24,775 bases of DNA from a virus. The first letter of the stretch is position 1; each line of letters begins with the position of its first letter. A program made the translations under genes and the position numbers. This document shows positions 3-20,962 of this stretch, piece after piece. The stretch spans positions 1 through 24,775 of IMG/VR virus record IMGVR_UViG_3300042389_000601; one strand, given 5' to 3'. The notes beneath the pieces were generated by a model. The model saw only the letters and a program-made list of their open reading frames with translations. It made no database searches and was not told the DNA's origin.

Positions 3-923
3 ACAGCAAGAATTGAACATTTAATGAACAATCCAGAGGTCTATAATAAGACTCTGTTTTTACATTACGGTGATCTATCAGACTATAATACAATTTCAAA
101 TGTAATAAACAAATATAACCCAGACGAGTTTTATAATCTTGGAGCGCAAAGCCACGTTAAAGTATCTTTCGATGCTCCAGTATACACGGGTGAAGTGGTT
201 GGTATTGGTACTCTAAATGCTCTGGAAGCAATACGAGAGTATGAGCAGAGAACTGGAAAGAAGATTCGTTACTATCAGGCATCCAGTAGCGAAATGTTTG
301 GTAAGGTACAAGAAGTTCCGCAAAAGGAAACTACACCATTCTATCCCCGCTCTCCTTATGGTTGTGCGAAGGTATATGCACATTACTTAACTGTAAACTA
401 TCGAGAAAGTTATGGAATGCACGCTTCTTGTGGTATTCTTTTTAATCACGAAAGTCCACGCAGAGGTGAAACATTCGTAACAAGAAAGATTACAAGAGCA
501 ATTGGTAGAATTTATCAAGGATTACAAAAGAAATTGTATCTTGGAAATTTAGACGCTTTGCGTGATTGGGGATTTGCCGGGGATTACGTCGAAGCAATGT
601 GGCTAATGTTACAACAAGATACTCCAGATGATTATGTTGTTTCAACTGGAAAAATGTATTCGGTTCGTGAATTCTGTCAAAAAGCATTTTCAAAATATAA
701 CATGAACTATGAGGATTATGTTGAAATTGATCCGCGTTACTATCGTCCAGCCGAAGTAGATCAGTTGCTAGGAGATTCTACAAAAGCAAGAACCGTTCTT
801 GGTTGGCAACCAAAAGTAGATTTTGATGGTCTAGTAAACATGATGACAGAGCACGATTTTGAACTTGGTAGAAGAGATTATACGATTCATATCCATGATA
901 AGAATTTAAAACCAAAATGGTAA
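3..923 (+). CDS. gmd: GDP-mannose 4,6-dehydratase, 5'-truncated by window edge
   Basis: Converts GDP-mannose to GDP-4-keto-6-deoxymannose, the branch point for GDP-fucose, GDP-rhamnose and GDP-perosamine. The frame is open to the left edge (TARIEHL precedes the first ATG at 24), matching the interior of GMD proteins, so the true start and the N-terminal Rossmann GxxGxxG are outside the window and ATG 24 is internal. Family landmarks, numbered from that Met: [12 protein letters not shown] (38-49), SSSEMFG (87-93) with the catalytic Ser/Glu pair, the YxxxK catalytic pair Y112/K116, and [17 protein letters not shown] (141-157). The C-terminal [13 protein letters not shown] segment is also typical. 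About 60-65 N-terminal residues are missing relative to the usual ~370. The stop overlaps the next start by 7 bases. Identification is very secure; the biological end product depends on downstream genes, where a perosamine-synthase-like aminotransferase is the best candidate. Confidence 0.95.
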
Positions 924-1528
924 CTGTAATTACTTTTTATACACCAGAATATAAAGAAGAAGCAATTGAACTTGTTAAGACTTGCAACAATTTTCAATTG
1001 CCAGTAAAAGCATATCCCAAAGAAAGTAAAGGTTCTTGGGTTCATAATTGCACCATGAAAGCCGAAGTAATAGAACAAGCACTACATGAATGTCAAGGTG
1101 GTGTTATTTGGGTGGATGCTGATGGTAGATTTAGAAATAAACCAGAATTGTTTGATAAACTTGGTGATTATGATTTTGGCTGTTATTGGATTCCTAATGT
1201 TTGGAATCAACCAAAAAATGCACACTTAAAACCTTGGAATCTTGGTAATGAGGCTCTTGCTGGAGGTACAATGTATTTTAACAATACTCCGCTTGCAAGA
1301 AGTCTAATCAATACATGGAAAGTTGAAAGCAGAAACAATCCCAATCGTTGGGAGCAACAAAGTTTACAAAAGGTATGGGAATCTTATGATAAAATGGGAT
1401 TGCGTACTTTTAATTTTCCACAGTCATATTGCAAAGTATTTGACTGCAAATGGTTTGAACCAGAACAACCAGTAGTAGTTGAACATATGCAAGCAAGCAG
1501 AAGACTTAAAACAAAGGTAGGAAAATGA
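917..1528 (+). CDS. GT-A-type nucleotide-sugar transferase-like protein
   Basis: A 203-residue protein with the layout of a small GT-A-fold glycosyltransferase. It has a beta-strand start (VTVITFYTP), a hydrophobic strand leading to the metal-binding DxD signature [10 protein letters not shown] (D67, D69), and a later [21 protein letters not shown] segment (about 95-115) like the glycine-rich acceptor/sugar-binding loop of nucleotide-diphospho-sugar transferases. There is no signal peptide or membrane segment, so it should act in the cytoplasm. Its ATG lies inside the end of gmd and its stop overlaps the next gene by 4 bases (ATGA). Donor and acceptor cannot be told from sequence. The family-level call is fairly secure; substrate unknown. 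Confidence 0.7.
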
Positions 1529-2202
1529 AAGAAGATGTGTGGTTAGCACTACCCAGTGCAAATATAGAAATGGCAAAGAAAACTTTTCCGGTTTGGAAAA
1601 GTAAAGGTTATAAGATTGCCGTAATTGTTCCAGATAGATTGCTTTCTCAATACTCAGGATTAGCCGATATTATCGTTGCAGAATCTAGCATTGGTGGTTA
1701 TCAAGGTTGGCCCAAAGCAGTAAATTACCTATCTGGATTATTGTCTGATTATGAAATAATAATTGCTGCTGGTGATGATATGTACCCAGATTCAGATTAT
1801 GAAGCACACCAACTACGTTTACAATTTGTTCGTCATTTTGGTGGTACTTTTGGTGTAATGCAACCATACGGTGATAAGTTTGGAAGCATGGCTTGTGATA
1901 CCTGTGAACAAATCTGCGGAAGTGCTTGGTTGGGTAAAGAGTTTAGGGAAAAAATCAATCAAGGTAAAGGTCCAATGTGGGAAGAATATTGGCACATGTG
2001 GGCGGATACGGAACTATATCAAGTTGCAACTAAATACAATTGCTTGTGGATACGCGGCGACTTGAAGCAATACCATGAGCATCGACTTCGCGGAACTCAT
2101 AAATTTCATCCCACCATTCCAGCAGGAAATACAAAGGTAGCGGAGAAAATTTACAGGGAACGCAAAGCAAATAATTTTCCAAACAGTGAACCTTTACTAT
2201 GA
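1525..2202 (+). CDS. GT-A-like glycosyltransferase (GDD motif)
   Basis: A 225-residue protein. Its N-terminal beta-alpha units (VWLALPSAN, KIAVIVPDRL) lead to YEIIIAAGDDMYPDSD, where G83-D84-D85 sits where GT-A enzymes bind the metal and nucleotide. The second half has CGSAWLG (131-137), WADTELYQ (159-166, a possible catalytic acid) and HEH (184-186), a plausible third metal ligand. The length is that of a minimal GT-A catalytic domain with no acceptor-recognition add-on. Joined to both neighbours by ATGA overlaps, so it is probably translated by reinitiation. Similar small proteins recur in glycan cassettes of large marine phages (recalled, not searched). Substrate unknown. Confidence 0.65.
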   Translation: MKEDVWLALPSANIEMAKKTFPVWKSKGYKIAVIVPDRLLSQYSGLADIIVAESSIGGYQGWPKAVNYLSGLLSDYEIIIAAGDDMYPDSDYEAHQLRLQFVRHFGGTFGVMQPYGDKFGSMACDTCEQICGSAWLGKEFREKINQGKGPMWEEYWHMWADTELYQVATKYNCLWIRGDLKQYHEHRLRGTHKFHPTIPAGNTKVAEKIYRERKANNFPNSEPLL

Positions 2203-2864
2203 TAGACTTATTAATTAAATATCCAACACGAGCCAGACCAGATCAATTTAAACGTATTCTTTCGGAATATGTAAATAAATTATCTGGCAAATATAAAGTC
2301 AAGTTTGTTATTTCTATGGATTTGAATGACGAAACTTGCAATAATAATCCAATGCGCTATTTCTTAGAAGATATGAAATCACGAATTGATTTGGAATATC
2401 ATTACGGTGATAGTCAAAATAAAATACATGCATGTAATCGTAATATTCCAACAGATGGTTGGAAAGTTTGTGTTTTAGTTTCAGATGACATGACACCAAG
2501 AGTTCATGGATTTGATGAAATAATAATCAATGATATGAATATGCATTTTCCAGATTTAGATGGTGCATTAAATTATAATTGTGGAGGTCATGCATATCCA
2601 AAAGTTATGGTACTTTCAATTATAGGAAATCCATACTATAAAAGATTTAATTACATATATCATCCAGAGTACACTAGTTTATTTTGTGATGAAGAACAAA
2701 CTGTTATTGCCAGATCTTTAAATAAAATTGTTGATATAAACAATAAAATTATCACACATGATTGGAATGATATAAAAGACAATCTAAGACAACACACTGA
2801 AAAATTTTATCATAGCGATAAACAAGTATTTGAATCAAGAAAACAAAGAGGATTTCCACTATGA
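2199..2864 (+). CDS. Putative GT-A-like glycosyltransferase (SDD motif)
   Basis: A 221-residue protein beginning LLIKYPTRARPDQFKR, the start expected of a family-2-like glycosyltransferase. NKIHACNRNI (74-83) occupies the place of the xGxxxARNxG segment of that family, and CVLVSDDMTP follows (SDD at 95-97, putative metal site). The second half has a FDEIIINDM helix and LFCDEEQTVIARSL, like the family-2 catalytic-acid region. No signal or membrane segment. ATGA overlaps at both ends. Similarity to the two preceding genes is in layout rather than in sequence, so it is probably an old paralogue or a separate acquisition. Fold-level assignment only. Confidence 0.6.
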   Translation: MIDLLIKYPTRARPDQFKRILSEYVNKLSGKYKVKFVISMDLNDETCNNNPMRYFLEDMKSRIDLEYHYGDSQNKIHACNRNIPTDGWKVCVLVSDDMTPRVHGFDEIIINDMNMHFPDLDGALNYNCGGHAYPKVMVLSIIGNPYYKRFNYIYHPEYTSLFCDEEQTVIARSLNKIVDINNKIITHDWNDIKDNLRQHTEKFYHSDKQVFESRKQRGFPL

Positions 2865-3451
2865 GTATATTATGGACTATAGGTATTTTACATTTACCAA
2901 AACGCGCGCATGTTTATAATCAATTACTTACGGAACTCAATAAACAAATTGCAGCAGAAAATGCTCAAGATAAAATTGAGATCATAACCGAAACTGATAA
3001 TGGTGAAAACAGTGTTGGTAAAAAGCGAAACACCGTCTTGGACAAAGCAAGAGGTGAATATGTTTGCTTTATTGATGACGATGATATGATCACGAATATC
3101 TACGTTTCTAAAACTTTAAAAGCACTAGAATCAAAGCCAGATGTCGTAGAACTTGTTGGTTTCTTACCAAAATACAATCTACCATTTATTCATAATTTGA
3201 ACTGCGGTGGGCATTTCCGCAAAGATGGAATACAATTTCGCACACCAAACCATTTGAATACAATTAAAACTAGTATTGCAAGACAAGTACGATATCCCGA
3301 AATATCTCACGGTGAAGATCAAGATTATTCTCACCGCTTGTGGGATAGTGGATTAATGAAAACAGAAGCACTGATTGGTGATCGGATGTATATCTACCAA
3401 TTTGATTCTGCAAAATCTGAAACAGTAAAGTTTATGAAGAGAAATAAATGA
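2861..3451 (+). CDS. Family-2-like glycosyltransferase
   Basis: A 196-residue protein with a clear GT2 pattern: N-terminal strand ILWTIGILHLPKRAHVYNQLL, then SVGKKRNTVLDKARGEYVCFIDDDDM (51-76). In this pattern GxKRN is the nucleotide-side loop and DDDD (72-75) the metal-binding acidic cluster. SHGEDQDYSHRLW near residue 149 is the likely EDxx catalytic-acid segment. This is the most recognisable glycosyltransferase of the block. It is short (typical GT2 domains are 220-300 residues), so it is a bare catalytic domain. Coupled by ATGA to both neighbours. The activity class is fairly sure; donor sugar unknown. Confidence 0.75.
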   Translation: MSILWTIGILHLPKRAHVYNQLLTELNKQIAAENAQDKIEIITETDNGENSVGKKRNTVLDKARGEYVCFIDDDDMITNIYVSKTLKALESKPDVVELVGFLPKYNLPFIHNLNCGGHFRKDGIQFRTPNHLNTIKTSIARQVRYPEISHGEDQDYSHRLWDSGLMKTEALIGDRMYIYQFDSAKSETVKFMKRNK

Positions 3452-4380
3452 AAAAAATAATATCATATAGTCTTTGGGGAGATTTACCTCTGTATACCGT
3501 TGGTGCAATTTCGAACGCAAAACAAGCAAAAGAAATATATCCCGGATGGATATGTCGTTTTTATATTCACGAACCATCAGTTCCTCAATGGGTAGTTGAA
3601 GAATTAAAAAAACAAGATAATGTAGAAATTGTATTTTACAATGATAATGTTGGTTGGGGTGGAATGCTTTATCGTTTTTATCCTGCCACAGAAGATGATG
3701 TTGAGGTAATGCTAAGTAGAGATACCGATAGCCGACTTTCTTTTAGAGAAAAAGCGTGTGTGGATCAATGGTTAGTGAGTACAAAAAAACTTCATGTCAT
3801 AAGAGATACTTGCGTACATCAATCCCAAATGATGGGTGGATTATGGGGTGCTAAAAGGGGTTATTTAAATTGGATTAAACCTCATATTGATTTTATGTTA
3901 AAGAAAGTAAAAAATGGATCTGCTAGAAAGGGGTGCGATCAAGATTTTTTAAACTCAAAAGTTTATTTGTATGCTGTTGGTGAAATAGATGCAAATTGTG
4001 AAAAAATTAATAAATTAGGAACATATGATCCAAATCAAATTAGTATAATTTCTCATGATGATATTGCATTTGGTTGTTTGAGGTTTCCCGGTTTTAGCCG
4101 ACTTCCTCATGTAAATGATGAGATGCGAAAAATGCCTATTCCCAGACAATATGGCGAATGTTACCATACTTGTGTGCATTGCGGGTTAAAACACGATAAT
4201 AAATATATTGGAAAAGTCGAATCTTTAACACAAGATGAAATAAAATATCTGAATTTAAGTGAAGAAGAAAAACAAGAACGAGAAAATATTTTTAAATATT
4301 ATAAACAGTATTTAATTAAACAATACAAGTATGGTTTTAGTCCAGTACAGCACGAACATGGTTCGGAGAAGATAATATGA
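3448..4380 (+). CDS. Glycosyltransferase-like protein, tandem paralogue 1, with Cys/His cluster
   Basis: A 310-residue protein with an N-terminal half shared with the next gene: MKKIISYSLWG start, a GWGGMLYRFYPA segment (69-80), then VMLSRDTDSRLSFREK with a DxD motif (D92, D94) and an MMGGLWGAK loop (128-136) like the glycine-rich loop of GT8/GT32-type transferases. A CDQDFL motif (163-168) is also shared. The C-terminal part is extra: CYHTCVHCGLKHD (238-250) packs three Cys and three His and could bind zinc, followed by a charged helical tail (ending HEHGSEKII). The first 30 or so bases match the next gene almost base for base, so the pair arose by tandem duplication or has exchanged sequence. 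ATGA overlaps at both ends. Enzyme class inferred from the DxD arrangement. Confidence 0.65.
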   Translation: MKKIISYSLWGDLPLYTVGAISNAKQAKEIYPGWICRFYIHEPSVPQWVVEELKKQDNVEIVFYNDNVGWGGMLYRFYPATEDDVEVMLSRDTDSRLSFREKACVDQWLVSTKKLHVIRDTCVHQSQMMGGLWGAKRGYLNWIKPHIDFMLKKVKNGSARKGCDQDFLNSKVYLYAVGEIDANCEKINKLGTYDPNQISIISHDDIAFGCLRFPGFSRLPHVNDEMRKMPIPRQYGECYHTCVHCGLKHDNKYIGKVESLTQDEIKYLNLSEEEKQERENIFKYYKQYLIKQYKYGFSPVQHEHGSEKII

Positions 4381-5141
4381 AAAAAGTAATATCATATAGT
4401 TTGTGGGGTTCTTCTCCGCAATATACAATAAATTTAATAAAAAATTTAGATTTAGCAAAACAGTTTTTTGAAGGTTGGACCTGTAGAGTCCATTTATCAC
4501 CGAATGTTCCGCAAAATATTGTAAATTTTATAAACAGTAGAGATAATTCTGAAATTGTTTTGATGGGCGAAGATGAGGGTTGGAATGGTATGTTTTGGAG
4601 ATTTTATCCAGCAAGCGATCCAACCGTAGATATTATGATTTCTAGAGACTGTGACAGTTATTTAAACATAAGAGATAAAGCAGCAGTTGATGAATGGATT
4701 GCAAGTAAAAAAATGTTTCATATAATGAGAGATCATCGCTCACATAGTGCCAAAATTATGGGTGGAATGTGGGGTGCAATGCAAGGAGCAGTACCAAATA
4801 TGAAATCATTGATAGATAATTATAGTAGAAAAGAAACAAACAATAGAAAAAATATAGATCAAGAATTTTTAAAAGAGGTCATTTATCCTCTGGTAAAAAA
4901 TAATTCATTGGTTCATGATTTTATGGATCGTTTTGGAGAAGGTGCTAAAAAATTTCCAATACCAAGAAAAGAACCAATGCGAGAATTTATTCAAAACGAT
5001 ATATTGATGTATTTGAATGCTACCACCAAAGAACAACGCTCTCAAGAATATAAAAAATACGATAATTATGATAATGATTATATTGGAAGAATAGAAAGCG
5101 TAAGCGATGAAGATATTAATTTTTACAAGGATAATACATGA
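4377..5141 (+). CDS. Glycosyltransferase-like protein, tandem paralogue 2
   Basis: A 254-residue paralogue of the preceding gene: MKKVISYSLWG start, GWNGMFWRFYPA (69-80), MISRDCDSYLNIRDK with the DxD pair D91/D93, KIMGGMWGAMQ loop and IDQEFLK motif all line up. It lacks the Cys/His cluster seen in paralogue 1 and continues instead with a short charged helical tail. Retention of the DxD and MGG(L/M)WGA motifs in both copies argues that both are active, perhaps adding successive or alternative sugars. Coupled by ATGA overlaps on both sides. Confidence 0.65.
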   Translation: MKKVISYSLWGSSPQYTINLIKNLDLAKQFFEGWTCRVHLSPNVPQNIVNFINSRDNSEIVLMGEDEGWNGMFWRFYPASDPTVDIMISRDCDSYLNIRDKAAVDEWIASKKMFHIMRDHRSHSAKIMGGMWGAMQGAVPNMKSLIDNYSRKETNNRKNIDQEFLKEVIYPLVKNNSLVHDFMDRFGEGAKKFPIPRKEPMREFIQNDILMYLNATTKEQRSQEYKKYDNYDNDYIGRIESVSDEDINFYKDNT

Positions 5142-5992
5142 AAATAAAATATTTACACCATCACATGGGTCTAGGTGATCATTTTTGTTGTAATGGAATG
5201 GTTTTGGAACTTATTAAAAGATGGAATGTTGATAAGATGTTTTTATTTTGTTGGGAGCATAATCTAGAAAATTTAAAAAAACTATACTTTAACAAAAAAG
5301 TAGAATTGATACCACTAAAGGGACATACTAACGAGCAGAAACAAGTAAATGAATATTTAAAAAATTGTGGAGTTTCTTTGCATCATAATGGTGTAGTCGA
5401 TTGGTTAACTGGAAATAGTGGAGATTATTATCAAGTAGGTTTTAGTTGGATGGAAAATGAATGTCATAAAAAAATATCACAACATGTTTCTTGTGATCAA
5501 TGTTTTTATATGCAAACACAAGTTCCATATGAACTACGATTTGATGGTTTTTCTTTTGATAGAGACATTGAGAGAGAAAATCAAGTTTATACAGAATTAA
5601 ATCCAAATAATGAAGAGTATATTTTTGTTGCAATTGATGATATGACGCGACAAATGATTGCTCCTAGTAGAAAATGTTTAAATAGCAAAATAAAAATAAT
5701 AGATAATCCAAAAAACTATAGCATAATGGATTTGGGCAAAGTTTTGGAAAATGCCTCAGAATTACATTTAATGGAAAGTTCTATTCGTTGTCTAATAGAA
5801 GCTAAAATATATGACATGAGCAAACCAAAATTAAATTTACATGCATGGAGAGGAGCAATTTGGGGAAACAATTCCATACATGATTGGAATTTAATATGGC
5901 AAGATTGTTCCGAAATATTATGCAAAAGAAAATATCCAATGTATCAAGGAGCAAATAATACATTTACAATACAGGGATATCATAAAGAATGA
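5138..5992 (+). CDS. GT-B-like (glycosyltransferase family 9-like) protein
   Basis: A 284-residue protein starting with YLHHHMGLGDHFCCNGMVLEL. The GLGDH loop after the first strand resembles the GxGD(H/x)xxxxP nucleotide-sugar transferase start of heptosyltransferase-like (GT9) GT-B folds. A second half-domain with NYSIMDLGKVLENASELHLMESSIRCLIEA (about 195-224) matches the C-terminal GT-B logic in which a Ser/Glu pair before a helix contacts the nucleotide. It is shorter than true heptosyltransferases (about 320-350 residues). ATGA overlaps to both neighbours. The fold call is moderate; specificity unknown, and a non-catalytic sugar-binding role cannot be excluded. Confidence 0.5.
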   Translation: MKIKYLHHHMGLGDHFCCNGMVLELIKRWNVDKMFLFCWEHNLENLKKLYFNKKVELIPLKGHTNEQKQVNEYLKNCGVSLHHNGVVDWLTGNSGDYYQVGFSWMENECHKKISQHVSCDQCFYMQTQVPYELRFDGFSFDRDIERENQVYTELNPNNEEYIFVAIDDMTRQMIAPSRKCLNSKIKIIDNPKNYSIMDLGKVLENASELHLMESSIRCLIEAKIYDMSKPKLNLHAWRGAIWGNNSIHDWNLIWQDCSEILCKRKYPMYQGANNTFTIQGYHKE

Positions 5993-6831
5993 TAGAAACT
6001 ATTAAAAAACATATTTTCAAATCCAATATACCACACTTACAAACTAATCCGGGTATAGGTGATCTAATAAATTGTTACATTTATGGTAGTGAATTATTTA
6101 ATAGATTTGAGTCTGTTAAAATTAGGATAGATTATGGTGTTTTATATTTTTATAGAAATGATAATAAATATTCTGAATCTTTGCATAAATTTACACAGTC
6201 ATTAGCAAAATGTGTATTTAAAGATCCTAGATTTCAACTAATAGATGATCCTTTGGATACTGGATCTATTTGTACTCATGATTATTCTAAATTATTAGAT
6301 GTTGAATTTAAACCAAAAGATTTAAGTTTTATAGTACATAAGGAAGATTTTGAAAAACCAAATTATAATTATGTTGTGATAAATGTAAAAATTCGTGAAT
6401 ACGATAAAACATTGAATGATTCAAACATCCAATATCTTATTAAATATTTAAATTGCTACAATGGTAAGATAATTCTCATGGGAGATAGAATAGTAGATTA
6501 TAATAAAAATACTGAATACAATTCATACAAACATTGGGTGTATTCAATATACTATCAATTAATAGATAAACTGGATAAAGATAAAGTAATTGATTTAACT
6601 CAAGAACATTTAATGCATGAACCTAATATTGATAAATTTGTTTATGAATATAATTTAGTAAAAAATGCTAATGAAGTTATACAAATAGGATTTAGTGGTT
6701 CTTATCTAATTAGTCTTGGATTAAATAAAAATGTAAAAGTGATCTGCCATAACAATAATTTTATATGGATGGCTAAACTGTATTTACCAGAACAAAACAT
6801 ATTAAAAACATACAAAGAACTTCTAACATAA
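5989..6831 (+). CDS. Second GT-B-like protein
   Basis: A 280-residue AT-rich gene product with an NPGIGDLINCYIYG loop (20-33) analogous to the GLGDH loop of the preceding protein. Its C-terminal half has ANEVIQIGFSGSYLISLGLNKNVKVICHNN, resembling the nucleotide-binding half of GT9/GT-B transferases (small-residue loop GFSGS before a helix). The middle GKIILMGDR strand also fits a Rossmann half. Sequence identity with the preceding gene is low, so the relationship is structural at best. It is the last member of the unbroken ATGA-coupled run; the next gene starts 5 bases after its stop. Function inferred from fold hints and context only. Confidence 0.45.
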   Translation: MIETIKKHIFKSNIPHLQTNPGIGDLINCYIYGSELFNRFESVKIRIDYGVLYFYRNDNKYSESLHKFTQSLAKCVFKDPRFQLIDDPLDTGSICTHDYSKLLDVEFKPKDLSFIVHKEDFEKPNYNYVVINVKIREYDKTLNDSNIQYLIKYLNCYNGKIILMGDRIVDYNKNTEYNSYKHWVYSIYYQLIDKLDKDKVIDLTQEHLMHEPNIDKFVYEYNLVKNANEVIQIGFSGSYLISLGLNKNVKVICHNNNFIWMAKLYLPEQNILKTYKELLT

Positions 6832-6836
6832 TTCAC

Positions 6837-7256
6837 ATGAATAATTTAATATTAAAAAATATAACAAATGAATATGAATTAAAAGAATTCATAGAATCTT
6901 GTAAAGAAGAAACAAAATCATTTAGATATTTTTCAAATAGACCATATGATATTTTTAAAACTCATATTTGCTCTTATCTGTTATATTTGAATGATGCTGC
7001 AATTGGTTATTATCATATTGAAAATGAAAATAATATAAATTGGTTTGGGATTTGTATTAGTAAAAAATATCAAGGATATGGTATTGGTTCATTTATATTA
7101 AATCATATGATTTCTACTTGTAAATTAAATAATATAGAAAAAATACATCTAAGCGTTGACATAAATAATAGTGTTGCTATAAATCTTTACAATAAATTTA
7201 ATTTCAAAATAAAAAAAGTAAATGAATTTTATTTAGAAATGATAAAGGAATTTTAA
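6837..7256 (+). CDS. GNAT-family N-acetyltransferase
   Basis: A 139-residue acetyl-CoA-dependent acyltransferase. The acetyl-CoA pyrophosphate-binding motif is present as ISKKYQGYGIGSFIL (Q79-G80-Y81-G82-I83-G84), followed by the KIHLSVDINNSVAINLYNKFNF strand-helix (about 102-123) with the N..A..LY signature of GNAT enzymes. It has the length of a single GNAT domain. Located between the transferases and the aminotransferase/methyltransferase genes, it is well placed to acetylate an amino sugar nucleotide such as the product of the gene at 8192, but acylation of a protein is possible. This is among the most AT-rich stretches in the window. Starts 5 bases after the previous stop. Confidence 0.8.
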   Translation: MNNLILKNITNEYELKEFIESCKEETKSFRYFSNRPYDIFKTHICSYLLYLNDAAIGYYHIENENNINWFGICISKKYQGYGIGSFILNHMISTCKLNNIEKIHLSVDINNSVAINLYNKFNFKIKKVNEFYLEMIKEF

Positions 7257-7257
7257 A

Positions 7258-7566
7258 ATGGCTGATACATTTGGTGGACTAATTGATAAACTAATAACAA
7301 TTGATATGAAAATGTGGAATAATCAGGAATTGTTGTACGAAATTCGTAGAATGACCTTCGAGGAATATAAGGAAAAATATTTCTTACAGGAAGATGGATC
7401 TTTGAGATTGTGGGAATGCTTAAAAAAGGCATGTGATTTAAATGTTCAACGAAATACTCTAATTGACGAAATAGACGAAAAAGTTTTGGAAATAGTTAAA
7501 GATGGATTATTAGGATCTGATTTAGATTCTGGAAAACATATACAAAGAAAACATAAAACTTATTAA
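7258..7566 (+). CDS. DUF4254-like small protein of glycan loci
   Basis: A 102-residue protein with a LIDKLITIDMKMW start (8-20) and a CDLNVQRNTLIDEID segment (about 58-72). This spacing matches my memory of the DUF4254 pattern (ID-L-x5-K-x-W ... LN-x-QRN-x-LI-x-EID), a small helical family of unknown function found in bacterial and phage polysaccharide clusters. Mostly helical and charged with no membrane segment. The ribosome binding site is AAAGGA at 7244-7249, 8 bases before the ATG. It sits 1 base after the acetyltransferase and 12 before the methyltransferase. Gene reality is secure; family membership is from pattern memory. Confidence 0.6.
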   Translation: MADTFGGLIDKLITIDMKMWNNQELLYEIRRMTFEEYKEKYFLQEDGSLRLWECLKKACDLNVQRNTLIDEIDEKVLEIVKDGLLGSDLDSGKHIQRKHKTY

Positions 7567-7578
7567 GAAAATAAAATT

Positions 7579-8190
7579 ATGGCAGAACTACAAAGTAACG
7601 AATTACAAGGCAGAATTTCAATAAAAGAAGCAAATTTTTTATATGATTTAATTAAACAATTCAGACCAAATATATGCTTAGAATCTGGAACTGGTACAGG
7701 AGCAGGAAGCACAAGAAGTATAGTTTCTTCTCTAGTTGATAACAATTATGGCGTCTTATACACATATGAAGAATATAAACAATTTTATGATACTGCTTGT
7801 ATGACATTTAATAATGAAAAAGACAAAAAATTTGTTAATTTAGTTAATAAAAGATTTAATGATGGTATTTTAGATTTAAATGATGAAATGTTTGATAAAA
7901 TTAATTTTGTGTTTTTAGATGGCGGCGACGAAGCGGAAGATAGTAATACCAAATTACCAGTAGATGAATATCTGAAAAATGTAAATTTATCAGAAAATGT
8001 ACAATCCTTCAAATATCTAGAAAATAAATTAAAAAAAGGCACACATGTATGTTTACATGATTGGTCTATATCTGGAGGTAGAGGTAATTTTGTTAAGCAA
8101 TATTTACAAAGCACAAATTTTCATGGATTCAAACTTGTATCTGTATTGGAAGGACATACAGGTTTGGCGCATCTCATAAAAACTATTTAA
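7579..8190 (+). CDS. Class I SAM-dependent methyltransferase-like protein
   Basis: A 203-residue single-domain protein with Rossmann-type methyltransferase landmarks: motif I ICLESGTGTGAGSTRSI (32-48, acidic end of strand 1 plus the glycine loop), YTYEEY (61-66) at the acidic strand-2 position, FVFLDGGDEAEDS (110-122) at motif IV, and VCLHDWSISGGRG after strand 5. The FLDGG...HDW pair is typical of sugar/small-molecule O-methyltransferases of the Methyltransf_24/CmcI-like group. It probably methylates the phage-encoded glycan or its nucleotide-sugar precursor. The stop is 1 base before the aminotransferase start. The substrate is inferred only from the neighbourhood. Confidence 0.7.
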   Translation: MAELQSNELQGRISIKEANFLYDLIKQFRPNICLESGTGTGAGSTRSIVSSLVDNNYGVLYTYEEYKQFYDTACMTFNNEKDKKFVNLVNKRFNDGILDLNDEMFDKINFVFLDGGDEAEDSNTKLPVDEYLKNVNLSENVQSFKYLENKLKKGTHVCLHDWSISGGRGNFVKQYLQSTNFHGFKLVSVLEGHTGLAHLIKTI

Positions 8191-8191
8191 T

Positions 8192-9298
8192 ATGATTCCA
8201 ATTTACAAACCATACTTACCGGAAGAATCACTAAAATATGCATACGATGCAATAAAAAGTGGATGGATTTCATCTTTAGGCAAGTATAAAAACATAGCAT
8301 CAAATAAATTATCAAAGACATTGGGAGTTAAGCACTCTTTACTTGTTTCCAATGGAACAGTCGCAACCCATCTTTTATTTAAAGGTATAAAGTTCTTATA
8401 TCCAAATGCAAAGAAAGTTATAGTTCCAAATAATGCTTATATTGCTGCATATAATGCCATATTATATGACGATTTGCATGAATTTGATATCTATCCAATA
8501 GATGCAAATATAAACACATGGAATGCCGATTACTCAAATCTTCCGTTTGAACCCGACGAAAATACAATTTTTTTGGTTGTTCATAATCTTGGTAATATAG
8601 TAAATGTTCCAAAATTAAAAGAAAAGTATCCAAAATCAATATTCATAGAAGATAATTGTGAAGGTATATTTGGTGAATACGAAAACAAAATGTCTGGATC
8701 TGAATCTTTTTGTTCTGCAATATCTTTCTTTGGTAACAAAAACATCACCACAGGAGAAGGTGGAGCAGTTTATACTAATAATACTGAATTATATCAATAT
8801 TTAAATAAAGTTCATGGACAAGGACAAACAGAAGAACGATTTATTCATGATGTATTAGGATATAACTACAGAATGACTAATATTCATGCTGCTATATTAT
8901 TAGGTCAATTGGATTATTATGAAGAAATTAAAAACAGAAAAACTAAAATCTTCAATACATATCAAACATTGTTGAGAAATATAGACGGAATTTCTTTACA
9001 AAGTGCGGAAAACAACACTAAGCATTCCATGTGGTTGTTTGGTCTTAGAATTGAAAATAATCTATCGTATGCAGTATCTAAAAAGTATTTTGACTCGGTT
9101 GGAATAGAAACAAGACCAATGTTTTATCCTATAGATGTACACAAGCATTTACGACATATTAAATCAAACAATAAAATAGCAACTACTCTAAATAACGAAT
9201 GTATAATTTTACCATCATATCCTGAATTAACTGATATGGAATTAGAATATATTTGTGACATGGTTATAAATTACAATTCTAATGTGGTAACAAAATGA
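8192..9298 (+). CDS. per: PLP-dependent sugar aminotransferase (DegT/DnrJ/EryC1/StrS), GDP-perosamine synthase type
   Basis: A 368-residue fold-type I aminotransferase acting on 4-keto sugar nucleotides. It shows IPIYKPYL..WISSLGKY at the N-terminus (2-32), SNGTVATH (53-60) for the PLP phosphate, IEDNCEGIFG (152-161, D154 pairing with the PLP ring nitrogen) and SFFGNKNITTGEGGAVYTNN with the Schiff-base lysine K183. The FFGNKxITTGEGG and xPxYKPYL..WISS combinations are the ones I associate with GDP-perosamine synthases, which transaminate exactly the GMD product made by the first gene here. Residue 186 onward is family-typical (RMTNIHAAILLGQL near 228-242). The aminotransferase class is near certain; the perosamine assignment is a reasoned guess. 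Its stop overlaps the epimerase start (ATGA). Confidence 0.8.
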   Translation: MIPIYKPYLPEESLKYAYDAIKSGWISSLGKYKNIASNKLSKTLGVKHSLLVSNGTVATHLLFKGIKFLYPNAKKVIVPNNAYIAAYNAILYDDLHEFDIYPIDANINTWNADYSNLPFEPDENTIFLVVHNLGNIVNVPKLKEKYPKSIFIEDNCEGIFGEYENKMSGSESFCSAISFFGNKNITTGEGGAVYTNNTELYQYLNKVHGQGQTEERFIHDVLGYNYRMTNIHAAILLGQLDYYEEIKNRKTKIFNTYQTLLRNIDGISLQSAENNTKHSMWLFGLRIENNLSYAVSKKYFDSVGIETRPMFYPIDVHKHLRHIKSNNKIATTLNNECIILPSYPELTDMELEYICDMVINYNSNVVTK

Positions 9299-10203
9299 AA
9301 ACAATAATAACAGGTGGTTGTGGATTTATTGGATCAAATCTTGTAGATGAATTAATTATACAGGGACATGATGTTACTGTTATGGATGATCTCTCATCCG
9401 ATGCACACGATCAATTCTATTTCAATCCACAAGCAAAATACTATCATTACGATATTACAAATGAACATCTTGTAAATGGTGTATTTGATCGTCATGAACC
9501 TGAGTACGTTTTTCATTTAGCAGCAGAGGCAAGAATACAAAATTGTATACTGAATCCCGGTAGAGCATTAGATATTAATACTTTTGGTACTCAAAATGTA
9601 TTGAATGCTGCCAAAATGGTTAAAGCAAAACGTGTAATTTTTTCAAGTACTTCTGCGATCTATGGATTGACAAATAAGGCAATTCAAAAAGAATCCGACA
9701 AACCAGATTGTTTAAATGCTTATTCATATTCTAAATTTTTTTCAGAAGGATTGTGCAAAATGTACTCCGATTTGTACAATCTGGATACTGCTTGTTTTAG
9801 ATATTTTAATGTGTATGGTCCAAGACAACCAAAACGCGGATCATATGCGCCTGTAATTGGTGTATTCTCTCGTCAAAAGAAAGCAAATCAATTAATGACG
9901 GTTGTTGGAGATGGTTTGCAAACCAGAGATTATATTCACGTATCCGATGTAGTTTCTGCTAATATTGCAGCAATGAATCACAATACAAATCTTTGTGGTA
10001 AGATAATGAATGTTGGAACTGGTACATCATATTCTGTTTTAGATCTTGCAAAAATGATGGGTGGAGAGTATACTCATGTTGCACCAAGAACTGGAGAAGC
10101 AAGACAAACTTGTGCCGATATTTTTGTAATTAAACAAACTCTTGGATGGCAACCAACCAAATGTCTTAAGGAATATATGGAGAATAAAGAATATGATACT
10201 TGA
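9295..10203 (+). CDS. NAD-dependent epimerase/dehydratase (extended SDR, UDP-hexose 4-epimerase-like)
   Basis: A 302-residue extended short-chain dehydrogenase. The NAD-binding TGGCGFIGSNLVDEL (6-20), the DD acid pair (31-32), FHLAAEAR (73-80), the SSTSAIYG catalytic serine/threonine region (117-124), the Y143xxxK147 catalytic pair and RYFNVYGPRQ are all present. GDGLQTRDYIHVSDV points to the GalE/WbpP group that epimerises C4 of UDP-Glc(NAc)/Gal(NAc) rather than to GDP-sugar reductases. It would supply a second activated sugar for the glycosyltransferases upstream. The last 11 bases overlap the gp33-like gene, tying the glycan block to the core genes. Substrate uncertain. Confidence 0.85.
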   Translation: MKTIITGGCGFIGSNLVDELIIQGHDVTVMDDLSSDAHDQFYFNPQAKYYHYDITNEHLVNGVFDRHEPEYVFHLAAEARIQNCILNPGRALDINTFGTQNVLNAAKMVKAKRVIFSSTSAIYGLTNKAIQKESDKPDCLNAYSYSKFFSEGLCKMYSDLYNLDTACFRYFNVYGPRQPKRGSYAPVIGVFSRQKKANQLMTVVGDGLQTRDYIHVSDVVSANIAAMNHNTNLCGKIMNVGTGTSYSVLDLAKMMGGEYTHVAPRTGEARQTCADIFVIKQTLGWQPTKCLKEYMENKEYDT

Positions 10204-11464: not shown

Positions 11465-13354
11465 TTATACATGCACACCAAATCCAGAACTTCTAGCGAC
11501 ATCTCTGGTTAGTGCTGCTGCCATTCCGCTCTCATCTGGTGGTATTGCTGCACCATCTACTACTGTTCCACCGGATTGACCCATTGGCATCATCTTTGTG
11601 CCATTGTTGTAATAATTATTGTTTATAATTACTGGTTGTGTATTTGCTGCCGAAACTGGTGTTTGCATCAAATCATTATTCATATTTTGTTGAGTTTGAT
11701 ACCGTACTGCTTCTCCTGTTGTTGATTGTTGCGCGGGGGATAGAGAAGCAGTTGGTGTTGATTCAAACGCTGCTGTAGGTGCTATAGATGGTGTAGGTGC
11801 AACAGTTTCCTTCAATGATGGTGTTTCTACCTTTGCTGTTGGCGTTTGTCCTTCTGCTGTTGTTGGTTTTTCTACACCCTTCTTAAACCAATCACCTATT
11901 CCAGGCACAGAAGCCGCAAATTCATAAACTTCTTTTGGTCCTATTGCCTCTGCAATTAAATTACCAACGTATTCACCACCATACGTTCCAATAACTCCAC
12001 CGAGTATTGAACCCAAAGGTCCTCCAACCAAACCTACAGCGGAACCTATGGTAGTTCCGATAAGGGAACCCATTCTTTTACCTAATTCCGCACCAATTGC
12101 TTCCTTCTTTTGTTCTGGAGTTAAATTGGGATCTTGTTGTATTGCTGGTATGTTTAAGTATCCGATGATACCTTCAATTGCAGTACCAAGCAATGGTACT
12201 CTTTTTAGAGCAGGAAGTATTACGTTTTTACCAGGTCCTTTTAAGAATGCCATAGGATTTTTAATGGCTTTTGCTAATTCTAGACCACCTTGTCCAAGTT
12301 GCTTCACCATCCCCACCGCACCAGTGCCTATATTTTTTGCAGTTTGTAACATTCTACCAAAGAAGCCGGGCTTTGGTGCTGCTGCGGCGGCTTGTGCTGT
12401 TGTGGATGCGGGGGTTGAAAGTAGTTGAGCAGGACTTGTGGTTGGTGTTGACGGGGGTTGCATAACAAACCCTTGACCTGGAATGTTTTGTATTCCGGCT
12501 GCAACTGGGGCTACTGATTGTGCTATTGCTGGAGCAGCTGATCCAGCGGCACCAAGTGCAGTTCCAAAACCTAGAAGAGATAATGCTTTGCTTCCTGCTT
12601 TTGATGCCGTTCCTGTTATTGCTGCTTTTGTGCCAGTTGCTGCTTTTGTTGTGGTATCAATTGCTTTAGCGGCTGTTGTAATTGGGGCAGATGCGCCTCT
12701 TACCTTTGCAAGTGCTCCTAATTTTCCACCAGCAGCAACTCTGGCAACACGAGAAAGTGCTCCAGCCTTTCCTCCTCTTCTTAATGTAGAAGCAAGAATA
12801 GCAGCATCGGCGGCAGTGCTCAACAATCCACCACCAGAATCCTCACCAGAACCACCCGTTCCAATTTTCTTCAAGATCTTTTCCATAATAACTTTAATGT
12901 CGATTAAAGTTTTATTTTGATCCATCTGCAAAGAAACTTGTTCTTGTTGAGCCTCAGCGGTTTCTCTTAGTTGTTCTGTCGATTGTTGGGGTATTGGTGA
13001 ACGAGTTTGTGCCTTTAACGACGCACTTTCATTTTGTATACCAAGTATGGTTTTTACTTTTTGGATTAAATCGTTTACAGTCTTTTTTATGTTGTTTGCT
13101 AAGTTTATGTAAATATCAAATGCCTTTTTGACAAACTTGTAATCTAATCCCTGAGTTTGTTTTTGTACCGCAGCATCCATTTTTTCTGACAGAGTAGATG
13201 ACTCTGGACGGGCAATTCTTCTTCGTGATGGAGTCGTGTTTCTTTGAAAAGAAGAAACCATAGCAGTTCCAGTATTTGAGAACATTCGTCCAATACCAGA
13301 AACTGCTTTAGTGTTTTGTTTACCCTCGGATGTTATTGTTGGTAGTGCTAACAT
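11465..13354 (-). CDS. Tape-measure / tail hub protein candidate (gp29-like position), Ala/Gly-rich
   Basis: A 629-residue protein, probably the tail-length ruler that fills the tail tube; T4 gp29 is 590 residues. Evidence is mainly positional: it directly follows the gp26-like gene and the -1 frameshift extension, as tape-measure genes follow tail-assembly chaperones. It has a basic N-terminus, a helical region (60-165), a long Ala/Gly/Thr-rich stretch (175-290), a Pro/Thr linker (297-330), a glycine-zipper segment (about 421-465, IGxxxGxxxG spacing) that could insert in a membrane, a Pro/Thr-rich linker (490-560) and a NNNYYNNG patch near the end. No clear ribosome binding site precedes the ATG, which is 3 bases after the extension stop, suggesting translational coupling. 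At about 1.5 A per residue the ruler would give a tail of roughly 90-100 nm, T4-like. An alternative is another virion protein. Confidence 0.6.
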   Translation of the reverse strand: MLALPTITSEGKQNTKAVSGIGRMFSNTGTAMVSSFQRNTTPSRRRIARPESSTLSEKMDAAVQKQTQGLDYKFVKKAFDIYINLANNIKKTVNDLIQKVKTILGIQNESASLKAQTRSPIPQQSTEQLRETAEAQQEQVSLQMDQNKTLIDIKVIMEKILKKIGTGGSGEDSGGGLLSTAADAAILASTLRRGGKAGALSRVARVAAGGKLGALAKVRGASAPITTAAKAIDTTTKAATGTKAAITGTASKAGSKALSLLGFGTALGAAGSAAPAIAQSVAPVAAGIQNIPGQGFVMQPPSTPTTSPAQLLSTPASTTAQAAAAAPKPGFFGRMLQTAKNIGTGAVGMVKQLGQGGLELAKAIKNPMAFLKGPGKNVILPALKRVPLLGTAIEGIIGYLNIPAIQQDPNLTPEQKKEAIGAELGKRMGSLIGTTIGSAVGLVGGPLGSILGGVIGTYGGEYVGNLIAEAIGPKEVYEFAASVPGIGDWFKKGVEKPTTAEGQTPTAKVETPSLKETVAPTPSIAPTAAFESTPTASLSPAQQSTTGEAVRYQTQQNMNNDLMQTPVSAANTQPVIINNNYYNNGTKMMPMGQSGGTVVDGAAIPPDESGMAAALTRDVARSSGFGVHV

Positions 13355-13357
13355 TAG

Positions 13358-13546
13358 TTATTTTTTCTTTAATTGTTCTTTTCTTTTATTTATTTCCTCT
13401 ACATGTTTTATTAAAAGATTTAGATATATTTCTCGCTCCCACGGTATCATATTTTCCAATTCAGTTAGGCTGTACTTATGTTCTTGGATTAGTATAAAGT
13501 TTGTTTTATACATGTTTTCCAAAGACTCATTCGCCAGCCCTAGTCG
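13358..13546 (-). CDS. Frameshift extension of gp26-like protein (gp51-like tail-assembly chaperone part)
   Basis: A short open frame between the gp26 stop and the tape measure. Entered from gp26 by a -1 shift it adds 62 residues (RLGLANES...EQLKKK) to the first 232 residues of gp26, giving about 294 in total. It contains an internal ATG at 13513 that would allow a free 51-residue protein. The core reads YSLTELENMIPWEREIYLNLLIKHVEEINKRKE, a helical motif (ENM-P-xEREIYL) of the kind seen in small hub-assembly proteins next to gp26 in T4-like phages. There is no strong ribosome binding site before the internal ATG (only TTTGGAAAAC), which favours frameshifting or weak coupling. The stop is 3 bases before the tape-measure ATG. 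Confidence 0.7.
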   Translation of the reverse strand, partial: RLGLANESLENMYKTNFILIQEHKYSLTELENMIPWEREIYLNLLIKHVEEINKRKEQLKKK

Positions 13547-14241
13547 AAAAAATCAACAAATTTATCCAAAACAACCTTTACTTTCTTTTGTGAATACGGC
13601 GACATTTCTTCCGACTCATAGTATATTGAGGGCATTGTATCAAAAAATTTACTCATTTTTTCGTACATATCTTGCGTAAATTGTTCTACAAATTCTTGTA
13701 GTTCTTTTTTAGAATAGTCTGAAGCATTATATACAGAATCTTTATCGTAAATTTTATCAATGCAATTTACTATGATATTGAATCCATTTTCTACCAACGG
13801 TTTAGATGGATCTACTGATAGAATTGCTCGCATGTTTGGGTACTTCATTTCCACAAACAAAGAATCTGATAATTTTAATCTTTTTTCGTGTTTTGTTGAT
13901 CTTTTTACTATAACTTTATTTAAATCTACATTTACTTCAAATTTTTTATTTGTATCTGGATCAATAACATTCACTTTGATTACTTCACCTATTGATTTTT
14001 CTCTTAATTTTAGAAAAATATATTCAATATCAAATGATGGTAATTCTTCAATATCTACTTTATCGATCAAACAATTTGTTATAACTTGATCCATTGCTTG
14101 CAGAATCTGATCATTGTCTTTAGATTCTGCGGCAATTAGAAGAATTTTTTCTTCCTTTACTAAGAATGGTCTATATCTTACTTTTTGACCATTTGATGGT
14201 AATTTCATTTCAAAGGTTGCAACGTCAATTTTTGGTAACAT
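13540..14241 (-). CDS. 26: gp26-like baseplate hub assembly protein
   Basis: A 233-residue protein (T4 gp26 is 208). The N-terminus, FEMKLPSNGQKVRYRPFLVKEEKILLIAAESKD, carries the YRPF-VKEEK-LL-A-ES pattern of gp26-like proteins of T4-type phages; the rest is acidic and mixed alpha/beta with DIEYIFLKLREKSIGE in the middle. It acts in assembly of the central baseplate hub and, by its position before the tape measure, probably as a tail-assembly chaperone. The ribosome binding site AAGGAG lies 8 bases before the ATG. It ends at a T TTT TTC heptamer, so a minority of ribosomes may make a longer form. Followed by the short extension frame and the tape measure. Confidence 0.75.
   Translation of the reverse strand: MLPKIDVATFEMKLPSNGQKVRYRPFLVKEEKILLIAAESKDNDQILQAMDQVITNCLIDKVDIEELPSFDIEYIFLKLREKSIGEVIKVNVIDPDTNKKFEVNVDLNKVIVKRSTKHEKRLKLSDSLFVEMKYPNMRAILSVDPSKPLVENGFNIIVNCIDKIYDKDSVYNASDYSKKELQEFVEQFTQDMYEKMSKFFDTMPSIYYESEEMSPYSQKKVKVVLDKFVDFFD
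13546..13552 (-). other. Putative -1 ribosomal frameshift site T TTT TTC
   Basis: On the minus strand the last codons of gp26 read GAT TTT TTC GAC TAG, so the heptamer T TTT TTC has canonical X XXY YYZ phasing one codon before the stop. In the -1 frame a TGA (13555-13553) lies immediately upstream, so that frame becomes open exactly at the heptamer and continues to 13358. A weak GACT/AGTC stem (13545-13542 with 13528-13525) follows; no strong stimulatory structure is evident. Confidence 0.7.
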
Positions 14242-14253
14242 TATTTAATCTCC

Positions 14254-14781
14254 TTAGCGATTATTCGATTTTGTAAATTCTGCATCTTGATATGAGAAAG
14301 TGACAGTTTGTTTTAAATATGAATCTCTGTCATCAAAAGACAATTGAGCGGCGTCTATGTTTGTTATTAATACTCTATTGAGTCTAACTGCATATAGTGT
14401 ATTGCTTGCAGAATCCATAGCAACTATGTTTAAAGTGCCCCATAAATTATTTACATATTCTACAAAATAATCAGATTGACTTTTGGGACTTGCTTTTTCC
14501 ATAAATGCATACAAATCTGCCGTGGGGTTTCCAGCACCATCCAATCTGAAAGTGATATTGCATGTTTGTGCCGGTAATTTAGCATATGGGATTTTAATTA
14601 TGGGTTGTGTGTTATATTGAAAATCGGCAGTACCAAGAGCGAGTGCAGGAAATTCAACAGATTCTACTAAAATTTGATATGCGCTTAATGAAGTTCCTGG
14701 CAGAAAAATATCTACAGAAAATCTGTTTGGACGCACCAAACCGGTTATTGCTCTTAAACTACTGGCTACATCTGATGCCAT
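14254..14781 (-). CDS. Tail-tube-fold protein (gp54/gp19/gp3-like)
   Basis: A 175-residue protein with the arrangement of the T4 tail-tube superfamily: RPNRFSVDI start strand (17-25), VESVEFPALALG (about 41-52), IKIPYAKLP, TFRLDGAGNPTADLYAFMEK in the middle, and the closing VLITNIDAAQLSFDDRDSYLKQTVTFSYQDAEF. That closing segment matches the pattern of gp54 (SSPELSYEDNN..TTFNVTFAYR) and gp19. The fold is shared by the tube (gp19), the tube initiator (gp54), the cap (gp48) and the terminator (gp3), so the exact role is open; among hub-assembly genes gp54 is the first guess. An AAGGAAG ribosome binding site precedes the ATG, which overlaps the upstream stop as TAATG. Confidence 0.65.
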   Translation of the reverse strand: MASDVASSLRAITGLVRPNRFSVDIFLPGTSLSAYQILVESVEFPALALGTADFQYNTQPIIKIPYAKLPAQTCNITFRLDGAGNPTADLYAFMEKASPKSQSDYFVEYVNNLWGTLNIVAMDSASNTLYAVRLNRVLITNIDAAQLSFDDRDSYLKQTVTFSYQDAEFTKSNNR

Positions 14782-18580: not shown

Positions 18581-19421
18581 TAATCATTTGGGTGATCCTA
18601 CATTTAGGTGGTGGTGGGGTTGTGTTGAAGATAGAATGGACCCATTACAAAAGGGAAGAGTTCGAGTCAGAATACACGGTTATCATAGTCCATTTAAAAA
18701 AGATATTCCAACTGAGGGTTTGCCTTGGGCCGAAGTAATACAACCAGCCACAACGGGAAATTCACCGCAAGCGACAGCGGTAGGATTGCATGAAGGATTA
18801 TGGGTATTTGGATTCTTTAAAGATGGTGTTGAATGTCAACAACCAGTAGTTGTTGGATGGTTGCCAACTTTACCGGAAGAACCCCCAAAGGAAGAAACCA
18901 AAGGTATTGATACTCTCCAACAAAAAGATACAGAATCTGAAACTTTCCAAAAAAATTATGGTGATGGATTCCGTGATCCAAGAAAACAAGAAGATCTTAA
19001 AAAATATCCATCAAAAGAAGTAAAAAGAAATTATCCACTTGGAAATCAAGAATCTTCTGAAAAACGTGGTGTTCAACTAGAAGAATTAGAACCTAAAAAA
19101 CAAACTGATCGTTTGGGTAGAGCAATAACGATAAACGATAAAACAAAAATAAAAGAAACAATAATAGAATTAAAAAAAACACCACGACCAGAAGGATTGC
19201 TGGACTCGGCACCAATCGCAGATATTGATATTGAGGAGTATTTTGAATGTGGTGTGGTGAATAAAAGTGAAGCAAATAAAGGTACATTGAGTGGGTTGGG
19301 TTCTGGAAATAATTCATTTAAAAGCAGTATAGAGGCTTCCAAATTTGACAACTGGAAATTGACAAAAGAAAAACCATTAAATTCTTCCAACAAAGAAATA
19401 TTAGGATGTAATGACTCATGA
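18573..19421 (+). CDS. 5: gp5 N-terminal part: OB-fold spike base, no lysozyme
   Basis: A 282-residue protein homologous to the N-terminal OB domain of T4 gp5: FRWWWGCVEDRMDPLQKGRVRVRIHGYH (11-38) and IPTEGLPWAEVIQPAT (45-60) match T4 VGVVEDRMDPLKLGRVRVRV and IPTEKLPWMSVIQP. EGLWVFGFFKDG..QQPVVVGWLP closes the fold by about residue 100. The rest is a long charged, probably disordered tail ending GCNDS. The T4 lysozyme domain is absent: there is no room for it and no matching motif. The start at 18573 is preferred over ATG 18567 because AAGGAG (18561-18566) directly abuts the earlier ATG but is 6 bases from this one. The stop overlaps the spike gene by 4 bases (ATGA). Confidence 0.88.
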   Translation: MPNNHLGDPTFRWWWGCVEDRMDPLQKGRVRVRIHGYHSPFKKDIPTEGLPWAEVIQPATTGNSPQATAVGLHEGLWVFGFFKDGVECQQPVVVGWLPTLPEEPPKEETKGIDTLQQKDTESETFQKNYGDGFRDPRKQEDLKKYPSKEVKRNYPLGNQESSEKRGVQLEELEPKKQTDRLGRAITINDKTKIKETIIELKKTPRPEGLLDSAPIADIDIEEYFECGVVNKSEANKGTLSGLGSGNNSFKSSIEASKFDNWKLTKEKPLNSSNKEILGCNDS

Positions 19422-20962
19422 GCGAATGCGATAAACCAAATATAGTTTCAGAACAAAATTCTGGAAAAGAAATTACAGGCAAGGGAAGACCAACTTCTGG
19501 TAAAACAATAAATCTTCCTTCTGGTGATAATGTTTCTGCAACAACTCCAGAGTCTACACAAAAAACTAAAGGTAATGTTACAGTAAAAGGTGGAGTCACA
19601 GCCGGTAATCCACAAGCATCTGCTTCTGCCCAAAATACCCCAACACAATCCGGTGGTGGGGGTGGAGGTGGTGGGGGGGGACAAGGTTCCGGAGATTCCG
19701 GTTTTGCAACTTGTTCAAACAAACAATGGAAACAACCAGAAACAGAACACGGAAGAGTAAAAGGTGAAGAAATTGAACCAAAAGATCCGTGTGGTGGTAA
19801 AGAAAAGAAAAGCAAAGAATTTAAGCCAGTATCAATATATCCTTTTAATAAAGCGTTTCAAAGTGAAAGCGGTCATTTAATAGAAATGGACGATACGCCA
19901 GGTAGTGAACGAATTTCGTTGTTCCATCGTTCTGGTTCAAATGTAGAATATTATCCAAATGGCGATGTAGTGGAACAAAATGTAAGAGATCATTATTTCC
20001 ATGTGTTTAGGGATAACTATGCACATCTTGGTGGGTATTCTACAGTCACTGTAGATAAAGGACTAAAAATCCTAGTAAATGAAAACAAAGAAGAAAACAC
20101 TAAAGAGAAAAATGTAAACTTTGACATTTTTATATCTGGTAATTCCAATGTTAATATTTACATTGAAAAAGGAAATATGAATGTTTCTGTTGCTGAGGGG
20201 GATGCAAATATAAGATTAAATAAAGGTGATGTGAATATCCTCCAAGATGAAGGAAATTATAATCATACAGTTGGTGGTGATTATAATTTAGAAGTAAAAG
20301 GACATATGCACGTGGTAGTTGGTGGGGATGTTGTGAACGAAATAGGAGGAAATAGAGATGAAAGAATTGATGGAGATTTTGATCAAAAATATCTCACAAA
20401 CAGTTCGGGTTATTTGGGTGAATATTTGTTGGGCAATAAGAGAACTTATATCGGCGGAAATCAAATAACCGAAGTTGTTGGTAACATTAATGAAAAAGGA
20501 CAACACAAAAAACAAGAACTCCAATCTCAAGAAAAAACCATATATGGATCTTTTGTGACAAAAACCGGAGGAAATTGGTGGTTGGCTTCTACTGCTGGTA
20601 TACAGATAGAAGGATTGCAAACTATAACGATTAAATCTAAATTGGATATGGATATATTTGGGGCAGAATATAATGGGAAAATGCGGATATATTCCGGGAA
20701 TACTTTAGAATTAATTGGAGAAAAGTTTACAGTATTGCGTTCTGCTACCGATAAAATTGAACTAAAAAGTTCAAAAAATGTTACACTCAAAACCCCATTG
20801 CTTTATAAACCCGACGATAAAAAAGCACCACCATTCAGTCCAGATCCTAAACCACTGAATTTAGACAATCCAAGTGAATATCAAACATCAAAACCGTCAA
20901 ATACTAAAGATTTTATGCAAAACAATAAGAAGGAATGGGTGCCAACTAGCGCCAAAAAATAA
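19418..20962 (+). CDS. gp5 C-terminal part: beta-helix membrane-piercing spike
   Basis: A 514-residue protein corresponding to T4 gp5C, the needle that punctures the outer membrane. Residues 1-135 are low complexity (Ser/Thr/Lys/Gly) with a ten-glycine run (79-88). FNKAFQSESGHLIEMDDTPGSERISLFHRSG (143-173) matches T4 ETESGHIQEFDDTPGQERYRLVHPTG. From about 235 to 325, octad-type repeats (VxGxNxxI spacing, e.g. IEKGNMNVSVAEGDANIRLNKGDVN) predict a triple-stranded beta-helix. A second repeat-like run reaches about 440, then a Pro/Lys-rich tail. Coding this piece as its own gene separates what T4 produces by proteolysis. Translation probably reinitiates at ATGA. Confidence 0.85.
   Translation: MSECDKPNIVSEQNSGKEITGKGRPTSGKTINLPSGDNVSATTPESTQKTKGNVTVKGGVTAGNPQASASAQNTPTQSGGGGGGGGGGQGSGDSGFATCSNKQWKQPETEHGRVKGEEIEPKDPCGGKEKKSKEFKPVSIYPFNKAFQSESGHLIEMDDTPGSERISLFHRSGSNVEYYPNGDVVEQNVRDHYFHVFRDNYAHLGGYSTVTVDKGLKILVNENKEENTKEKNVNFDIFISGNSNVNIYIEKGNMNVSVAEGDANIRLNKGDVNILQDEGNYNHTVGGDYNLEVKGHMHVVVGGDVVNEIGGNRDERIDGDFDQKYLTNSSGYLGEYLLGNKRTYIGGNQITEVVGNINEKGQHKKQELQSQEKTIYGSFVTKTGGNWWLASTAGIQIEGLQTITIKSKLDMDIFGAEYNGKMRIYSGNTLELIGEKFTVLRSATDKIELKSSKNVTLKTPLLYKPDDKKAPPFSPDPKPLNLDNPSEYQTSKPSNTKDFMQNNKKEWVPTSAKK

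Follow-up and report, generated by a model that had tools for sequence, protein, structure and literature searches.

In the window (the whole 24,775-nt stretch of viral DNA analysed here, from a T4-like phage), a gene related to gene 26 of phage T4 is followed on the minus strand by a short second frame and then by a 629-aa protein, which raises the question of whether the second frame is a gene of its own or the shifted end of the gp26-like gene. The latter was proposed in an earlier note on this DNA. From the sequence and its comparison with relatives, the locus very probably encodes a pair of tail assembly chaperones (TAC) that would be produced from one start by -1 programmed ribosomal frameshifting. 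The tail tube gene lies upstream of these genes in the minus-strand order, and the features of the locus are the following.

14254..14781, minus strand: gene of the tail tube protein, 175 aa, immediately 5' of gp26 (phrog_45 tail tube, E 3e-17)
13540..14241, minus strand: gp26-like gene, ATG start, 233 aa, putative short form of the chaperone, TAC-N like (PF12322, E 1e-59; phrog_150, E 3e-64)
13546..13552, minus strand: slippery heptamer T TTT TTC, in phase, with one codon between it and the gp26 stop (sequence; T TTT TTN in 208/214 distinct loci)
13540..13542, minus strand: zero-frame stop TAG of the short form (sequence)
13358..13546, minus strand: -1 frame extension, 62 codons and TAA, homologous to the T4 gp51 C-terminus (phrog_634, E 2e-23; extension profile matches T4 gp51 208-246)
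13533..13540, minus strand: predicted 5' arm of a downstream stem, GGGCTGGC, 5 nt past the heptamer (MFE fold; same outer stem predicted in the relatives L006 and L011)
13467..13475, minus strand: predicted 3' arm of this stem, GT A CAGCCT (arms nearly invariant in L001, L005, L006 and L011)
11465..13354, minus strand: tape-measure candidate, 629 aa, its start 3 bases past the extension stop (position; composition; weak PHROG matches)

The ATG start of the gp26-like gene is preceded by aaGGAGattaaata and its 3' end reads GAT TTT TTC GAC TAG. The heptamer matches X XXY YYZ in the zero-frame phase and falls where the two frames overlap. A TGA overlapping GAT, right at the start of the heptamer, closes the -1 frame and leaves a usable overlap of about 15 bases, slip site included. 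The extension reads RLGLANESLENMYKTNF...ENMIPWEREIYLNLL...KKK up to a stop at 13360..13358, and the predicted long product reaches 294 aa. Re-reading of the sequence found the heptamer, its phase, the TGA and the overlap given in the earlier note to be correct base for base, and likewise confirmed the 62 codons of the -1 frame, its end 3 bases before the 629-residue candidate and the length of the long product.

The label “gp26-like”, first assigned from the letters alone, was right, the protein being a member of PF12322 (T4_baseplate; 202 bits for a curated cut-off of 24.5). The 62-residue frame matches the “baseplate hub assembly catalyst” family (phrog_634, T4 gp51), and the gp26 profile phrog_150 runs on into the extension, its C-terminus being matched by the 62-residue frame. 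This extension is a conserved protein, present in 537 phage records. The 629-aa protein is alanine/glycine-rich, with hydrophobic stretches, and its weak PHROG matches include one to tape measure proteins (6e-6). No sequence match was obtained with the large proteins encoded downstream in 12 relatives or with part of T4 gp29, and because this comparison found nothing, the tape-measure label relies on position and weak profile matches. With the downstream neighbor so defined, the locus has the placement of a TAC locus, between a tail tube gene and a tape-measure candidate.

The order tail tube, gp26, extension, tape-measure candidate is the same as in lambda and P2, in which the G/GT and E/E' genes occupy this same place between tail tube and tape measure. 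As here, these genes have their -1 heptamer close to where the short form ends and derive the long form from a second frame. The slip site of lambda is G GGA AAG instead of T TTT TTC, and the short form is larger in the window than in lambda and P2 and belongs to its own Pfam family (PF12322). On this reading, most ribosomes would terminate at TAG and release the 233-aa short form, while a minority would slip back by one base on T TTT TTC, with both tRNA-Phe re-pairing, and continue into the long form carrying the gp51-type extension. Slippage would set the ratio of the two forms and, in the window, would probably be aided by an mRNA stem starting 5 nt past the heptamer. The two forms would then cover the tape measure protein, whose gene comes next downstream, and bring in tail tube subunits, as G/GT do in lambda.

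Relatives were gathered from IMG/VR and GenBank phages, and counts were made on distinct loci with a complete 3' end. This comparison, which the earlier note had suggested as a check, revealed that the heptamer, its phase and the downstream frame are kept across very divergent phages: an in-phase T TTT TTN is found at the end of gp26, together with a gp51-like -1 frame, in 208 of the 214 distinct loci, related sequences being taken as independent in these counts, so that nominal probabilities are overstated. The conclusion of conservation is safe despite this kinship because divergence reaches about 20-25% protein identity. The set spans Kyanoviridae (cyanophages), KVP40-like and Aeh1-like Straboviridae, Cronobacter LPCS28, Stenotrophomonas Yut3, Pseudomonas pf16, Caulobacter Cr30, three phages of rhizobia and Acinetobacter nACB2, with hosts including Vibrio and Aeromonas. 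The last base of the heptamer is mostly C (115 loci) or T (90), rarely G (2) or A (1), and in one IMG/VR subset T TTT TTC stands ten bases before the gp26 stop in every locus with both ends present. The homology of the -1 frame is kept even though the zero-frame stop and the upstream -1 stop differ in position between loci.

The heptamer is conserved beyond the amino-acid constraint. The codon preceding Phe-Phe ends in T in 98/98 distinct genes (expected 62%), though it encodes S, D, N, G or A, and the first Phe of the pair is TTT in 98/98 as compared with 69% elsewhere in the gene; other Phe-Phe pairs of the same proteins are mostly written TTC TTT. Elsewhere in these 98 distinct gp26 genes, T TTT TT occurs at only 12 of 22,953 in-phase codon steps, giving a chance of about 0.3% for one match in a 5-codon overlap, and the identical site in 208/214 distinct loci rules chance out. 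No relative was found to combine an intact second frame and a destroyed heptamer with a good ribosome-binding site at the internal ATG, the case that the earlier note had named as refuting frameshifting; the closest case is that of Ackermannviridae-like phages, which have kept the -1 frame and have no strict heptamer. The sequences L115, L121, L122 and L123, likewise devoid of a strict heptamer and corresponding to Ackermannviridae (0507-KN2-1, Mooltan), Vibrio K444 and Aeromonas TSW001, retain the MPWH motif in their -1 second frame. L021-L024, at first counted as relatives and belonging to the six distinct loci without the site, turned out to be distant members whose second frame is not in -1. 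They keep GTTTTTTC at the end of gp26, their gp51-like frame being in +1 (equivalently -2), and a +1 or -2 frameshift at the same place is possible.

Elements resembling frameshift stimulators were found on both sides of the heptamer. The RNA located 3' of it shows more structure than control segments taken from the same genes over the 208 loci (mean z of -2.29 vs -0.38), with z below -2 for 52% of downstream segments and 7% of controls. In the window, an outer stem GGGCTG/CAGCCT is predicted, in a fold of -20.5 kcal/mol (MFE) over 78 nt, with z about -4.2 to -4.6 for a segment chosen to start at the stem. This stem draws no support from covariation, its clade (L001, L005, L006, L011) being too small to offer any. 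A related clade of 63 distinct sequences has a 9-bp stem, pairing columns 15-23 with 62-70, which was named from single-sequence folds and then tested. It is paired in 89% of cells, of which 23 are changed on both sides vs 7.4 +/- 2.1 when shuffled, and pairing falls to 19-35% when the stem is slid by 1-3 columns; RNAalifold returned no consensus structure on the same 63 sequences. The evidence for covariation in this related clade is good but not unanimous. By eye, another clade shows a hairpin GACCG...CGGTC, which reads GACGG...CCGTC in L302.

Upstream of the heptamer, a Glu-Gly codon pair stands at a fixed distance of 9 nt in 101 loci (about half), mostly cyanophages. The Glu is written GAG in 80 of these 101 vs 28% elsewhere (odds ratio 10), yielding GAGG, and Shine-Dalgarno-like tetramers occupy this position in 100/208 loci vs 57/1,456 control windows. 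The dnaX frameshift has a Shine-Dalgarno stimulator, which GAGG resembles. No such element was found in the window's own sequence, and across loci the upstream element and the stem display no clear anticorrelation.

The second frame could otherwise be expressed as a separate short gene, with a start of its own or through termination-reinitiation following gp26, without any frameshift. GenBank annotates the gp51-like protein as its own CDS in cyanophages, stop-start overlaps (TGATG/TAATG) occur in Cr30, phiM9, ValKK3, Yut3 and RHph_I1_9, and the window has an in-frame ATG at codon 12 of the extension. This explanation is nevertheless improbable, considering that the start positions of the second frame are not conserved among relatives, that the usual ATG has no upstream Shine-Dalgarno, and that it leaves the invariant T TTT TT without a reason. 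Moreover, in L013 and L116 the extension has no ATG, GTG or TTG among its first 30 codons, and independent initiation therefore cannot yield it in these two loci. Frameshifting is the sole explanation common to all loci, and reinitiation may coexist with it in some. In L111, L112, L114, L118 and L119, the second-frame start overlaps the gp26 stop (TGATG/TAATG) just past the slip site. Many relatives have a start codon early in the second frame, in some of them across the stop, so that reinitiation could add there a separate short product, the third of the locus.

Slippage could also be thought to occur during transcription, as RNA polymerase can slip on long T/A runs and the site is a run of 6-7 T. 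With just 6 T in the window and in most loci, the tract is usually thought too short for this; the codon phase is invariant, the wobble T is selected, and the downstream stems and upstream GAGG are marks of ribosomal slippage, all of which makes a transcriptional origin very improbable. Least credible of all is the view that Phe-Phe-stop is kept for the needs of the protein while the second frame is the decaying remnant of a gene. Phe-Phe is indeed conserved at the amino-acid level and T4 has two separate genes instead, but codon choice at the slip site is constrained far beyond amino acids and the extension is too widely conserved among phage records for a remnant.

Under ribosomal frameshifting, both forms would come from one gene, whereas in T4 they would come from genes 26 (208 aa) and 51 (249 aa), which are separate, on opposite strands and divergently transcribed. 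With a fused-product profile, T4 gp26 aligns across the short form (hhalign probability 98.6) and T4 gp51 over nearly the whole length, extension included (96.6). The view of gp26 and gp51 as one gene with a shifted long form, put forward in the earlier note, is thus supported by comparison, and the homology it suspected between the 62-residue extension and gp51 is found with the C-terminus of the latter; the assimilation of gp51 to the extension alone did not hold, T4 gp51 being a homologue of the complete long form. The short and long forms have their N-terminal part in common, as judged from the sequence, the -1 frame and the alignment of T4 gp51 to the whole fused product. The 3' end of T4 gene 26 reads GAG TTC TTT GAG TTA CTA TAA, in which the slip site is absent (G TTC TTT), and no extension lies downstream. 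T4 has one gene for the short form and another for the long form, and the simplest history would be that its ancestor swapped one frameshifted gene for two. An internal product of T4 gene 26, 26', is annotated at 4303-4590 (L109); it is perhaps relevant to T4 isoforms and is unrelated to the slip site.

In T4, gp26 and gp51 are counted among the hub assembly chaperones, gp51 being required yet absent from the particle (PMC3004832). The present finding supports taking gp51, the “hub assembly catalyst” of T4, for the long form of a chaperone of the tape measure. The passages of Sullivan et al. 2010 (PMC3037559) that bear on it describe the gp51 of cyanophages and vibriophages as lacking its first ~200 residues and offer no explanation; these would seem to be missing because they are gp26, joined to the rest by frameshifting. 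On a larger scale, the chances are about even that T TTT TTN frameshifting is ancestral and prevailing in T4-like phages except T4, with stimulators exchangeable by lineage (a downstream stem with covariation in some and, in cyanophages, a GAGG of Shine-Dalgarno type 9 nt upstream), and that the separate genes 26 and 51 of T4 are a derived replacement by duplication.

The tail assembly chaperone genes of T4-like phages were identified by Vladimirov, Gautam and Davidson (2022, Virology 566:9-15), as reported in passages of PMC10885494 and PMC12846349, and their proteins are very probably the same as those described here, T4 gp26 matching the short form and T4 gp51 the long form as a whole. According to the same passages, some T4-like phages have a short gene and a longer fused gene in place of the frameshift (PMC10885494, citing Vladimirov et al. 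2022) and poly-T slippery sequences are known -1 signals in their TAC-N genes (PMC12846349, citing Vladimirov et al. 2022). The TAC locus of Vandenendeviridae/Andersonviridae (phage Adele) has a stop-free conserved -1 frame and an invariant poly-T at the end of TAC-N, and frameshifting was likewise deduced there by comparison only; it concerns other virus families and a different motif, GTTTTT, and the passages on it make no mention of stem covariation or of an upstream Shine-Dalgarno-like element (PMC12846349). The papers searched, Vladimirov et al. 2022 not being among them, contained no text on frameshifting specifically in cyanophage gp26/gp51. The core claim is best treated as known in kind; the comparative detail is new, leaving aside whatever part of the lineage spread and stimulators Vladimirov et al. 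2022 may have reported. The GenBank feature tables examined contain either gp26 alone or gp26 and gp51 as distinct CDSs, and none has a joined feature, meaning that the long protein is missing from these annotations. In cyanophage records where gp51 is a separate CDS (e.g. L025, L125), the internal ATG chosen as start differs between records. The site, with stimulators that vary naturally across hundreds of phages, constitutes a ready comparative set for how frameshift ratios are set.

A role as tail assembly chaperone is favored by the short/long design and by the location just ahead of the tape-measure candidate. An AlphaFold2 model of the short form (pLDDT 88) gave no significant match against the PDB. 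Among the PDB matches listed, the highest probabilities are those of 3fgx (Bacillus stearothermophilus, 0.72) and of the HK97 tail assembly chaperone 2ob9 (0.57), both with E 1.7 over just ~55 residues, and the weak likeness of the modelled fold to 2ob9 is suggestive only. A sequence search of solved structures with gp26 found no match. In a viral structure library, the model matches gp26 proteins and one gp51 (W5ZRX8, 4e-6), which supports a fold common to gp26 and gp51. Outside the locus, two plus-strand regions of the window were noticed by eye: a long run of nucleotide-sugar/glycosyltransferase-like genes adjoining the tail module (3-10203), and a baseplate spike-like protein containing about eleven consecutive glycines (19418-20962).
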